A stretch of 64,000 nt of DNA, taken from contig NZ_CP026106.1 in NCBI RefSeq assembly GCF_002902965.1, positions 1,488,001-1,552,000 on the forward strand, given 5' to 3'. Position 1 is the first letter of the stretch. Each line of letters opens with the position of its first letter. The DNA is from Paraburkholderia hospita (lineage in GTDB: Bacteria; Pseudomonadota; Gammaproteobacteria; Burkholderiales; Burkholderiaceae). A model generated the notes under the pieces. That model saw nothing but the letters and a program-made list of their open reading frames with translations, had not been told where the DNA came from and searched no databases. Of this stretch, positions 30,306 to 34,178 are shown piece by piece. The position numbers and the translations under genes were made by a program.

Positions 30306-31511
30306 TCAAGCGGTAGGGGCGGATTTTGGTTGGTAGAGGGTGCCGTCGCGCAGCATGGCGAACAGCACGTCGCAGCGTCGTCGAGCGAGAGCGATGAGCG
30401 CCTGATTGTGGCGCTTGCCCTGCTGGACCTTGCGCGTGTAATAGTCCCTTGAGATCGGGTCTCGCAGGGCAGCAAAGGCCGAGAGGAAGAGCGCTCTCTT
30501 GAGTACCTTGTTGCCCCGTCTGGACGGGTGTTCGCCACGGATGGACGAGCCCGAGCGTCGGGTCACCGGGGCGAGGCCGGCGTAGGCGGCGAGATGCGCA
30601 GCCGATGCGAAGGCTTTGTGAGCGACTTCAGTGAGGAGTCTGGCGGCGGTCCTGACGCCGACTCCCGGCATGCTGGTCAGGACCGGCCAAAGAGGGTGTG
30701 CGTGCACCAGACGTTCAACTTCGCTGGCAACCTCCTCGCGTTGCTTGCGCAAGGATGCGAGTTGCTGGGCAAGACGCGGCATGACGATGGTTGCGGCCTG
30801 AGTACCGGGCACGATCACAGCCTGTTCGCTGAGCGCCTGGACGATGTCGGAAGCCAGGCTCTTGCCCATGCGAGGTGCGAGTTTGGTGAGGCGGTTGGCG
30901 AGTGTTTTCTCGCTGGCTGAGGCGAGCTCGGCGGGTGACGGGTATCGCTCAAGCAGATCGAGCACGGCCGGATGGTCGAGCCGCGGCCCCACGACCCTTT
31001 CCAGCGCCGGATGGATCTGGGTGAGCAGACCTCGAATGCGGTTGCTGGTCTGCGTGATCTGGGCCGCCAGATCGTCGTCGAAGCCGCACAGCATGGTGAG
31101 TTCGGCGAGTGGTTCGTCAGCCAGCCGAAGTGAGCGCAGCGTATGCGGCATTGAGCGCGCGGCTTCAGCAATGATGGCGGCATCGCGAGCATCAGTCTTG
31201 GCTTCACCGGCGTGCAGGTCGGCGATGCGGCGCATAGCCAGACCCGGTAGATATGCGACCAGAACATCTTCATCACGGGCGACTGCCACGGGCAACGCGC
31301 CGATGGTGGCGGGTTGATCGACGACGAACAGGAGCTGGCCGTGCGTCTTGAGTTCGGTAATGAGGGCGCGCAGCTTGGCCTCATCGTTGGGCAGCGCCTT
31401 GTTGTAAAGGCGCTTTCCGCGCCGATCGAGGGCGACGGCGTGATGGTGGCCTTTGCCGACATCGACGCCGACGAATACATCGACAGAGCTATGTTGTTGG
31501 TTTTCTTGCAT
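30306..31511 (-). CDS. IS110-family transposase (DEDD recombinase)
   Basis: 401 residues. The N-terminal RuvC-like DEDD domain is seen in VDVFVGVDVGKGHHHAVALD, the Glu/Asp-bearing middle, and the AKTDARDAAIIAEAAR segment. The C-terminal Tnp_20 domain shows LTSMPGVGVRTAARLLTE, LAAYAGLAPVTRRSGSSI and GNKVLKRALFLSAFAAL, with its catalytic Ser. The frame is intact, so the element may be active. I start at 31511 (MQENQQHSSVDVF); the longer frame runs into the leader region. Confidence 0.93.
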   Translation of the reverse strand: MQENQQHSSVDVFVGVDVGKGHHHAVALDRRGKRLYNKALPNDEAKLRALITELKTHGQLLFVVDQPATIGALPVAVARDEDVLVAYLPGLAMRRIADLHAGEAKTDARDAAIIAEAARSMPHTLRSLRLADEPLAELTMLCGFDDDLAAQITQTSNRIRGLLTQIHPALERVVGPRLDHPAVLDLLERYPSPAELASASEKTLANRLTKLAPRMGKSLASDIVQALSEQAVIVPGTQAATIVMPRLAQQLASLRKQREEVASEVERLVHAHPLWPVLTSMPGVGVRTAARLLTEVAHKAFASAAHLAAYAGLAPVTRRSGSSIRGEHPSRRGNKVLKRALFLSAFAALRDPISRDYYTRKVQQGKRHNQALIALARRRCDVLFAMLRDGTLYQPKSAPTA

Positions 31512-31589
31512 CGAAGGCTTTGCAGGTTGAACGGTTTGGCCTGCAACATCGGTGGCAAGTCTCGGCATCCACGTTACGGACGGCCTCAA

Positions 31590-31745: not shown

Positions 31746-31993
31746 AGCAGGTGGGGTGGGCGTTCCGGCGCCGTTATCACATGTTGTGATATATCTGTGA
31801 ATGTTTTGCGTCACACGTCGCTGATGGATGTTGCAAGGCAGTGCTTACAGCTCGTTGAGTAATCGATAACAACATTGATTAAAGAAACGTTTCATAACGC
31901 CTTCGGGAATTGTGCCGGTGCATTGTGCGATGTTGGGCGTAGCCCTTCTTTAGTTTTTCGCTGGCATCCGCGGTGTGATGTTTGCTGCGCAAG

Positions 31994-32166
31994 CGGTTTG
32001 GTGTTTTTGCTTTTGCGCTGGCATCCGCGTTATGGTGTTTGCCGTTCAAGCGTCGCCCCTGTGCGGGGCGGCACCTACTTTTCTTTGCCGCCGCAAAGAA
32101 AAGTAGGCAAAAGAAAGCGGCTCACACCGCCAGCTCTTGTGTTTGCCTGAGGGCCCCCAACCGGTC
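31994..32166 (+). repeat. Left 173-bp arm of the palindrome
   Basis: Inverted copy of 32527-32699 with a single difference (C versus A in the GGCTCACACC stretch near 32123). Just outside it, about 31956-31993 is a diverged direct copy of an internal part of the arm (CGCTGGCATCCGCG), showing local duplication. Confidence 0.93.
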
Positions 32167-32526
32167 TTATGCTTCGCACGGCAACGTCCTTGTTCGCGTG
32201 CGTTGCCAACGCTTTGAATGAACGCCTCACCCGCTTCGAATGCCTGTGCACGGGCTAGCGGCAGCGAATGGTTTGCGCCGCCCAGGTGGCAAACTGTGTG
32301 TAGGTTGTCGCGTCGTATAGCCTGGCGCTCTTACATGGAGGTATGCGCGTGCTATCGGTCCGAAGTGAGGCGTGCGAGGCACTACGGCCTACACACAGTT
32401 TGCCACCTGGGCGGCCGTGGAATATCTGGCATGGCGTGCTCCGACGCGGGTGCGTGAAGCGGGTGAGGCGTCAATTCGGAGCGTTGGCAACGAACATGAG
32501 TCACGTGATTGCCGCGTGAAGTGAGG

Positions 32527-32699
32527 GACCGGTTGGGGGCCCTCAGGCAAACACAAGAGCTGGCGGTGTTAGCCGCTTTCTTTTGCCTACTTTTCTTTGC
32601 GGCGGCAAAGAAAAGTAGGTGCCGCCCCGCACAGGGGCGACGCTTGAACGGCAAACACCATAACGCGGATGCCAGCGCAAAAGCAAAAACACCAAACCG
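32527..32699 (-). repeat. Right 173-bp arm of the palindrome
   Basis: Inverted copy of 31994-32166. Beyond it, 32700-32730 again carries a diverged ATGCCAGCGC unit, mirroring the duplication outside the left arm. Confidence 0.93.
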
Positions 32700-32783
32700 G
32701 ATGCCAGCGCAGAGGCCAACACACCGAACCAGCACTGCGAAGGCAAATCACAGCCCCCGCCGAAGCCAAAAACCAAACCCAAA

Positions 32784-34178
32784 TCACATAACGGCAAGCT
32801 GCGCAGCAGCACTCCTCAACGCGCTCCGCAAACCCTCCTCAACAACAGGATGATAAAAAGGCATCGCGAGCATCGCATCAACGGTAAGCCCCATCTGCAA
32901 CGCCCACGACAGCAAATGCGCAATATGCTCAGCATCCGGCCCGATCCACTCAGCACCCACAAACCGTCGCGTATCGCGATCCACATACACATGCATCAAC
33001 CCGCGATTCCGCAGCATCACGCGGCTACGACCCTGATCCTCAAAGCTCACTTCACCCGTCACAAACGACCCATCAGCAAGATCCAGGAACCGCGCCCCAA
33101 CCATCGCAATCCCAGGCTCAGAAAACACAACTGAAATCGCGGCCCGCCGCACAAGCGGCTTCACATCGGGATACCGCGCGGCATTGTCGCCCGCAGCGCG
33201 ACCTTCATCGGCGGCTTCGTGCAAGAGCGGCAGCACATCATTCGCATCGCCCGCGATAAACACGGGATGCTTGCCCGCCTGCAAAGTCAGCGGATCAAAC
33301 ACAGGCACACCGCGCGCATCGACCTCGAGCGTCGTGTTATGCAACGCAAGCTTGTCCATATTCGGCCGACGGCCTGCCGTCACCAGCACATAATCGAACG
33401 TGTCTTCGTGCAATTCCCCCGCTCCATCGCGATAACGCAAACGCACGCTGTCACCTTCGCGCGTTGCCGCTTCCACCTGCGCATGCGTCTCGAAGTGAAA
33501 AGAATCCCTGAACACATCACGCGCATAATCCTTGATCGCCGGATCGCTCAACGGCCCAACGCGCCCACGCGCACCGAGCATCGTCACGTCGGCGCCAAGC
33601 CACGCGAGCGCCTGGCCGAGTTCAAGCCCGATCACGCCCGCGCCTACCACCGCGACCTTGCGCGGCAGATCGTCCCACGCAAAGACGTCGTCGTTGACGA
33701 TCGCGCGGTCGCCGAGCGCCTGGTACATCGCGGGCACATACGGCGATGAGCCCGTCGCGATCACGACGCGCTTCGCGTGCACGCGGGTGTGCTCGCCGAC
33801 CTGCAGCACGTTATCGTCGATGAATTGCGCGTAGCCGATCAGCCGCTCTTCATCGGGAATGCTTTCCGTCGATTCGACGACGAACCCAACAAAGCGGTCG
33901 CGCTCGCCCTTGACGCGCGCCATCACTTCACGTCCGTCGACCCGCACGGCGCCATCGACATGCACGCCGAACGGTGCCATGCTGCGCGCCGCATGCGCGG
34001 CTTCGGCGGCGGCGATCAGCAGCTTCGACGGCATACAGCCGACGCGCGCACAGGTCGTCCCGTACGCGCCGCCTTCGATCAGCACGACACTCGCGCCCGC
34101 GGCCTTCGCGGCGCGGAAGGCGGACAAGCCCGCGCTGCCCGCGCCAATCACTGCAACATCGATATGAAGCGTCTTCAT
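32784..34178 (-). CDS. Dihydrolipoyl-dehydrogenase-like disulphide oxidoreductase
   Basis: 464 residues, class I pyridine nucleotide-disulphide oxidoreductase. FAD motif VAVIGAGSAGLSAFRAAKAAG, redox disulphide C-x4-C in TTCARVGCMPSKLL (ARVG instead of the usual LNVG), NAD motif VAVVGAGVIGLELGQALAWLG, FAD motif VFIAGDAND, and C-terminal base HPVVEEGLR. The fold and catalytic residues of an E3 enzyme are present, but it is a divergent stand-alone type, and no 2-oxoacid dehydrogenase genes flank it. The precise electron acceptor is uncertain. Its 3' end lies only 84 bp from the large palindrome. Confidence 0.85.
   Translation of the reverse strand: MKTLHIDVAVIGAGSAGLSAFRAAKAAGASVVLIEGGAYGTTCARVGCMPSKLLIAAAEAAHAARSMAPFGVHVDGAVRVDGREVMARVKGERDRFVGFVVESTESIPDEERLIGYAQFIDDNVLQVGEHTRVHAKRVVIATGSSPYVPAMYQALGDRAIVNDDVFAWDDLPRKVAVVGAGVIGLELGQALAWLGADVTMLGARGRVGPLSDPAIKDYARDVFRDSFHFETHAQVEAATREGDSVRLRYRDGAGELHEDTFDYVLVTAGRRPNMDKLALHNTTLEVDARGVPVFDPLTLQAGKHPVFIAGDANDVLPLLHEAADEGRAAGDNAARYPDVKPLVRRAAISVVFSEPGIAMVGARFLDLADGSFVTGEVSFEDQGRSRVMLRNRGLMHVYVDRDTRRFVGAEWIGPDAEHIAHLLSWALQMGLTVDAMLAMPFYHPVVEEGLRSALRSAAAQLAVM

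Follow-up and report, generated by a model that had tools for sequence, protein, structure and literature searches.

REPINs are inverted pairs of REP hairpins that are moved by RAYT (PMC8049555). A GTAG REP is defined by a GTAG tag at the end of the hairpin and by a stem of 5-13 bp (PMC3733652), in a paper whose main text does not mention Burkholderia. In Pseudomonas aeruginosa, REPs are the targets of ISPa11, an IS1111-type element (PMC11187229). The founder of RF02421 (Bp1_684) is a 114-nt sRNA that was detected by RT-PCR and for which a possible trans-acting role was suggested (PMC3521395); the words "repeat" and "palindrom" are absent from the main text of that report. Our literature search for the core letters and for a repeat of this kind in Paraburkholderia or Burkholderia gave no description that we recognised as the family reported here. 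In bacteria, instability is the expected fate of long palindromes, and palindrome-promoted slippage and deletion on the lagging-strand template, with a strand preference, has been seen in E. coli constructs. In the IS608 model, single-stranded DNA is excised by a HUH enzyme with a guide located between the cut site and the hairpin. BIMEs are binding sites for gyrase, IHF or Pol I.

The window analysed here is a stretch of 64,000 nucleotides from Paraburkholderia hospita (NZ_CP026106.1, positions 1,488,001 to 1,552,000). It contains one member of a family of about 150 long hairpin elements, probably an old dispersed repeat that would work like an oversized variant of REPIN/BIME-like repeats.

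Layout of the palindrome

The roughly 700-bp palindrome of the original prediction is real and its coordinates are exact: two 173-bp arms (31994-32166 and 32527-32699) differ at one base and are inverted around a centre at 32346.5. These arms belong to a wider ungapped inverted repeat with 249-nt arms that are 90% complementary, and a perfect 28-bp pair (32277-32304/32388-32415) has the same centre; of the three concentric pairs that had been claimed, the long arms and the 28-bp pair were recovered, while the third was not listed separately. Diverged partial copies do flank both arms, as had been noticed, but the centres of their pairs (32318 and 32362) show that they are not concentric with the palindrome. 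Each arm also has the two hairpins ascribed to it, referred to here as H1 (a GCCCC/GGGGC stem with a loop of 5) and H2 (a 15-bp stem with a loop of 4). From the outside inwards, each end consists of GCTGGCATCCGCG shell repeats, H1, H2, a GCAAAAGAAAGCGGC box and variable sequence, and the asymmetric centre is flanked by the 28-bp perfect inverted repeat. The features are as follows, without strand except for the gene:

31949..31995: outermost diverged copy of the GCTGGCATCCGCG shell repeat, left (repeat pairs D2, I2)
32015..32029: shell repeat GCGCTGGCATCCGCG, left edge of the conserved unit
32055..32069: H1 hairpin, left, GCCCC-TGTGC-GGGGC; left collapse point after 32059
32060..32628: 569-bp interior, the part missing from collapsed copies
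32074..32107: H2 core hairpin, left, loop CGCC
32107..32121: conserved inner box GCAAAAGAAAGCGGC, left
32277..32304: central 28-bp perfect inverted repeat, left half
32305..32387: asymmetric centre, an aid in orienting each copy
32388..32415: central 28-bp perfect inverted repeat, right half
32572..32586: conserved inner box, right
32586..32619: H2 core hairpin, right, loop GGCG
32624..32638: H1 hairpin, right, GCCCC-GCACA-GGGGC; right collapse point after 32628
32664..32678: shell repeat CGCGGATGCCAGCGC, right edge of the conserved unit
32683..32714: outermost diverged shell repeat, right (repeat pairs D4, I3)
32784..34178, minus strand: neighbouring gene with its 3' end towards the element, which we take from its sequence to encode an lpd-like flavoprotein

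The palindrome strand folds end to end, with an energy of -557 kcal/mol over 661 nt as compared with -274 +/- 5.6 for 20 shuffles. Since, in addition, none of 100 shuffled windows matched its hairpin pattern, a chance origin is excluded.

A dispersed family at gene ends

To describe the family, we used the own genome (G000, 11.5 Mb in 6 contigs), a related species (G001) and an outgroup (G020). The suspected membership in a high-copy family was confirmed by 306 H2 sites in G000, against 0 in the reversed-pattern control. Most of these sites form inverted pairs about 512 bp apart, and H2 plus the inner box is found in 153 + 154 arms, so that G000 should contain approximately 150 full elements. 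A sample of 61 sequences (the window and 60 loci taken from the listed matches only) included 54 full pairs with a hairpin spacing of 507-514 bp, 23 in one orientation and 31 in the other. With all copies turned to one orientation, almost no variation was seen in the two hairpins of each end, the inner box or the central repeat, whereas the other positions varied.

Within the genus, 18 of 24 genomes (the own genome included) contained H2 sites, from 1 to 342 per genome, and none was present in 16 genomes of other families. The suggestion that CAAAGAAAAGTAGG words occur elsewhere in Burkholderiaceae was borne out by matches in other genomes and plasmids of that family. A BLAST search of plasmids gave 20 records from Paraburkholderia (10), Burkholderia (7) and Caballeronia (3), and the 80 listed of at least 120 stretches in a pattern scan of species genomes were from Paraburkholderia or Burkholderia plus one Pseudoxanthomonas contig. 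Matches that covered 80% or more of the query were present in 8 records of named, complete replicons from other Paraburkholderia. Two Caballeronia records had the same ends, and inner arms that BLAST mostly failed to align to the window yet that paired with one another. Single H1-H2 modules (RF02421) were seen in two Burkholderia records (L269 and L272, one each); the annotated one of the two is B. cepacia ATCC 25416, where the module is located between aceF and lpdA.

The elements are intergenic and are found mostly at the 3' ends of genes. Using our own codon-usage gene calls, and other gaps of at least 60 bp in the same sequences as a control, we found 29 of the 54 full elements between convergent genes as compared with 24 of 182 other gaps (p 5e-9), and 3 of 54 versus 53 of 182 in divergent gaps. 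A gene 3' end was located within 250 bp of 47 of the 54. A few called genes reach or slightly enter the edge of an element, with one clear case (L057). This location may merely reflect where insertions are tolerated.

Many of the loci are common to relatives. On C1 up to 1.61 Mb, matched by eye from order and coordinate, 32 of 33 G000 sites had a counterpart in G001, which has 36 sites. In a flank test of five loci, the window and four others, both flanks were found in G001 at four, 91-96% identical and with element hairpins between them (at an unusual spacing in one); for the window locus, only the right flank was among the G001 matches listed. The outgroup has a diverged form of the element at some of the same loci, and spacing runs matched by eye between two records of P. 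largidicola (19 and 20 forward arms) and between two of P. caribensis (24 and 24). The closest of the 1431 pairs among the 54 sampled G000 copies were 95.6% identical, with a mean of 82.1%, and this sample thus gives no sign of a recent burst. Recent formation, which the near-identity of the arms had suggested, was rejected for the window palindrome in view of the loci common to relatives, where the related species has the family at the same places, and of arms that are family-wide, with a hairpin part that is nearly invariant in the copies compared. Judged from these sequence comparisons, the element family is probably old and vertically inherited, with loci kept across species.

The family resembles REPINs in having an inverted hairpin pair around a spacer, about a hundred or more copies, an extragenic location, a sequence that can fold as single-stranded DNA and long persistence; inverted REP-type hairpins at a fixed spacing are present in many copies (54 pairs, 306 sites). 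It differs in that the repeat is about 570-700 bp in size, with a conserved centre and extra outer hairpins rather than a short diverse spacer, and in a shell collapse with replication-related polarity. Nor was a linked RAYT found: no Y1_Tnp match was seen beside the repeat within about 1.5 kb on each side, no dedicated RAYT flanked by the repeat was seen in the own genome, and a linked RAYT was rejected. Like BIMEs and the GTAG and CGTC REPs, the units are palindromic, single or dimeric, and many are downstream of genes (PMC3733652), but the H2 stem is 15 bp and the H1 stem about 6 bp. GTAG is located inside the 15-bp H2 stem rather than at the hairpin end, and reads GTAA in variants. For CGTC REPs, defined by a CGTC tag, a stem of 8-9 bp and a loop of 4-5, the nearest feature is GCGTC or GCGTT preceding the H1 stem of about 6 bp with its loop of 5. 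RF02421 resembles H1 plus the outer sequence, with 118.8 bits on the Burkholderia module, but was described as one 114-nt sRNA (PMC3521395), whereas here a match below the threshold is found at both ends of a 700-bp palindrome. Terminal inverted repeats, many copies and no conserved coding capacity noted are reminiscent of MITEs; in contrast, the loci examined showed neither a target duplication nor an autonomous partner nor a recent insertion, and element-free alleles at the loci compared differed beyond the element with no clean duplication. The non-autonomous element with long terminal repeats that had been proposed is a possible origin, for which a linked transposase, a target duplication and a recent insertion were all looked for and not found.

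The repeat is itself invaded. In three copies, H2 is interrupted at an identical position by an IS110-family element (L058:9894-11673, L071:4001-5779 and L081:4001-5777); it is 1264 bp in L071 and encodes a DEDD transposase of 319 aa by Pfam. The three long-spaced H2 pairs among the sampled loci of the own genome each hold such an insertion inside H2, which looks like a target site of this IS110-family element, much as REPs are for ISPa11 in P. aeruginosa (PMC11187229). A guide for the H2 target in the non-coding ends of the IS110 element was considered and rejected, as only 7-nt matches were obtained. A second IS110-family transposase gene (Pfam PF01548, PF02371) is located at 30306-31589 in the window, between the nar genes and the element. 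At six sites in the outgroup (L330, L331, L332, L333, L352 and L353), one and the same foreign end, ...GAGAGCATT, adjoins the right half of H1, which looks like the insertion of a further mobile element at H1. L268:1126-1833 (minus strand) contains an intact Y1/RAYT-like gene of 235 aa that seemingly does not have the histidines of the HUH motif; the protein is possibly domesticated.

Exchange between copies and conserved hairpins

At a maximum of one mismatch, the 173-bp arms of the window copy are third in length among the 54 copies, level with the second, the median being 89. The identity of the arms is mostly a property of the family. Arms within one copy co-vary slightly, with 80.3% paired cells as compared with 79.6 +/- 0.2 after shuffling of arms among copies (maximum 80.2% in 200 shuffles), and because this excess is small, strong arm-to-arm homogenisation was rejected as the rule. 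The long arms of the window copy fit an occasional, recent arm-to-arm conversion.

To quantify exchange between loci, we compared 22 orthologous loci of G000 and G001, 19 of which were comparable; at the other 3, the stretch used did not contain a full pair. In 3 of the 19, the G000 copy that matched best was the ortholog, and the mean ortholog identity was 0.803, barely higher than the mean of 0.787 for the sampled G000-G001 pairs (522 of 1566). The ortholog was likewise the best match in 3 of the 12 loci for which both flanks were verified (at least 0.85 identical over at least 200 bp); at these 12, eight copies had the same orientation, three were clearly inverted and one was ambiguous. Since orthologs were rarely the closest copies and some were inverted, the loci appear to have been kept while their contents were exchanged and sometimes flipped. 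Interior identities within genomes were 0.863 for G020 (55 pairs), 0.821 for G000 (1431) and 0.790 for G001 (406), while those between genomes were 0.713 for G000-G020 (594), 0.707 for G001-G020 (319) and 0.787 for G000-G001, so that homogenisation of a genome's own set is clear for G020 only, of the three. Six plasmid copies from other species had identities of 0.817 to G000 and 0.807 to G001; they are as close to the G000 copies as these are among themselves, and nearer to the G001 copies than the latter are to each other, although the six had been chosen for their top matches to the window. The gene conversion that had been proposed is supported: sequence exchange between copies is likely, and conversion between the two arms fits the extra identity at the window locus. 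Ectopic recombination between copies would give both exchange and inversions, as palindromic arms would permit pairing in either orientation.

The short hairpins are maintained more strictly. Among 434 anchored H2 sites, in which overlapping loci may repeat, 31 had no hairpin by the rule used; 392 of the remaining 403 were perfectly self-complementary and 11 had one mismatch. The standard arm was seen 349 times, CTTACTTTCTTTGC 37 times and CCTACTTTCTTTGC twice, besides a few singletons, and the variants are self-complementary too. An element of the outgroup (L354) even contains two H2 hairpins of different types, each self-complementary. Such a pattern is compatible with selection for each local hairpin as well as with quasi-palindrome repair by template switching, and the letters of H2 that are conserved across species would favour selection.

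The reading that we prefer, and consider slightly better than an even bet, is an old, vertically inherited dispersed repeat like an oversized BIME or REPIN, with ends inverted around a conserved centre and located mostly at gene 3' ends. The core hairpins would owe their persistence to some use, most likely that of a putative protein-binding or structural site (topology, transcript end). Alternatively, the family could be only a selfish relic, in which conversion and template-switch repair keep the palindrome and its core with no benefit to the host. The exchange between copies is in line with such a relic, as is the finding that short-range hairpins are perfect and long-range arms are not, which quasi-palindrome repair predicts; this correction could perfect short hairpins without selection. 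However, the core is near-invariant across the sampled species and within G000 while neighbouring positions vary, and we regard the relic as a tentative, rather improbable account.

Collapsed copies, replication and RNA

At three sites (A, B and E), one genome contains the full element and the other its outer shell alone, joined as GCCCC|GCACA. In the coordinates of the window, this collapse corresponds to the loss of 32060-32628 (569 bp). These sites were found by comparing occupied loci and not by their junction, with which the remaining shells were searched. Site F has the same shell state in G000, and at sites C and D G000 is without a shell. The comparison of the lpd-nar interval that had been suggested for finding empty sites showed a full element in G000, a shell in G001 and no element in G020; second copies, collapsed sites and element-free sites all exist, contrary to the refuting condition that had been set. 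In the outgroup, nar and lpd adjoin without IS or element, and G001 has a different left neighbour. The outgroup is filled at B, E and F, and the shells there are therefore deletions (3 of 3 informative loci), whereas site A and the window locus are uninformative about the direction of change since G020 has no element. No gain of an interior into a shell was seen at the polarised sites. Collapse between the H2 copies was found in 0 of 448 cases (overlapping loci counted more than once); as these copies are 34-bp direct repeats, its absence is not what slippage by repeat length predicts. The shell pattern was matched in 20 of 144 genomes of the genus. Five Paraburkholderia plasmid records with full copies contained no shells. 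Among the matches listed for C1 2.77-3.4 Mb of G000, shells are frequent and full elements rare, while G001 lists many full elements; this may be due to regional collapse or to imported DNA.

The loop of the scar tends to follow the direction of replication. The GC skew of C1 is positive to about 1.8 Mb and then negative, and the strand with GCACA agreed with the sign of the skew in 16 of 18 shells with both flanks from G000, G001 and G020 (p 0.0013), sites A and B being assigned by chromosome-arm skew; by local skew alone, 14 of 18 agreed (p 0.031). A second test in genome G127, where 32 pattern matches were obtained and the 20 stretches compared yielded 24 shells, gave agreement in 18 of 24 by local skew sign (p 0.023), and in 20 of 24 (p 0.0015) when the prevailing sign of the C1 arm replaced two weak local values. 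Without the G127 shell at C1:3234958, which has the same flanks as G000 C1:3378623, the count was 17 of 23 (p 0.035). Pooled by local skew, 32 of 42 shells agreed (p 0.0009). These counts exclude partial H1 sites that did not have both shell flanks, 13 in the first count and 3 in G127; the 13, which we do not take as collapse products, had no polarity (7 of 13 agreed with local skew). Filled copies, of which the two parts of C1 contained 14 f/14 r and 4 f/12 r, showed no clear trend with replication. G127 C2:1131167 and G001 C2:940358, with 89% identity in the left flank, probably represent one locus; each is collapsed, but their loops are opposite, which would represent two independent losses or an inversion.

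We infer that, of the two H1 copies, the one reached first by lagging-strand synthesis is retained after collapse. The polarity would match slippage on the lagging-strand template: where this template is single-stranded, the element would fold and synthesis would jump between the outermost short direct repeats, GCCCC, to give the collapse. It would also fit single-strand excision by a HUH enzyme, which we consider the less likely cause of interior loss.

Excision is central to another account of the family, as a non-autonomous transposon whose interior is cut by a HUH/Y1-like enzyme from single-stranded lagging-strand template, the shells being donor joints. The position of the collapse, which was GCCCC^ on either side wherever a site was read, the tendency of shells to a replication-strand polarity and the longer H2 repeats without collapse would suit such an enzyme, and GGGGC between the cut site and H2 is placed like a guide if the IS608 model is followed. 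But the shells beyond A, B and E were searched by that very junction, so that others would be missed, and the polarised sites show loss only, with neither gain of an interior into a shell nor a target duplication. Moreover, the own genome has 3 Y1_Tnp matches, two with an internal stop and one weak, and none is near the repeat. We consider such a transposon unlikely. Low confidence also attaches to a combined view, in which the approximately 150 elements are kept alike by continual exchange and are lost by site-specific excision of lagging-strand single-stranded DNA at H1, with no transposase of their own, which would make them a natural recorder of replication direction across the genome.

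More doubtful still is a structured RNA or transcript-end element, with ends that encode copies of an sRNA-like or a terminator or processing hairpin. The gene 3' ends near 47 of the 54 full elements and the detection of the RF02421 founder by RT-PCR (PMC3521395) would accord with this. The model itself scored 37.4 and 32.7 bits at the two ends of the window element, below its gathering cut-off of 44 bits, and reached the cut-off in two Burkholderia loci (118.8 bits on the module) and one of two Caballeronia loci. However, departures from pairing in the arms were equally G-T (614) and A-C (610), which leaves no RNA-strand bias and no G-U excess, and RNA-level pairing of the arms was rejected. 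Terminator-like signals at 3' ends facing the element were found in 77 of 94 cases versus 37 of 144 in a first count, in 82 of 95 versus 71 in local shuffles under lenient settings, and in 28 of 95 versus 13.7 under strict ones, a twofold excess on which we do not build; being largely explained by T-rich edges, they do not argue for a terminator function. Rfam matches to MIR918, mir-627, isrG, SNORA57 and TtnuCD16 were below the cut-off and were dismissed as chance matches on a long hairpin.

Finally, an assembly artefact or a single recent inverted duplication at the window locus, which long near-identical arms, being unusual, might have suggested, is refuted by the family, which has copies in the hundreds and is represented nearly in full in complete replicons with names, and has a negligible probability.

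About 150 long palindromes thus persist in this genome, many of them at places conserved across species, despite the instability expected of such sequences. The family provides an example in which dispersed repeats of bacteria can be studied for sequence exchange, and as its shells seem to mark the lagging-strand template, the strand preference of palindrome deletion may be testable in natural genomes.
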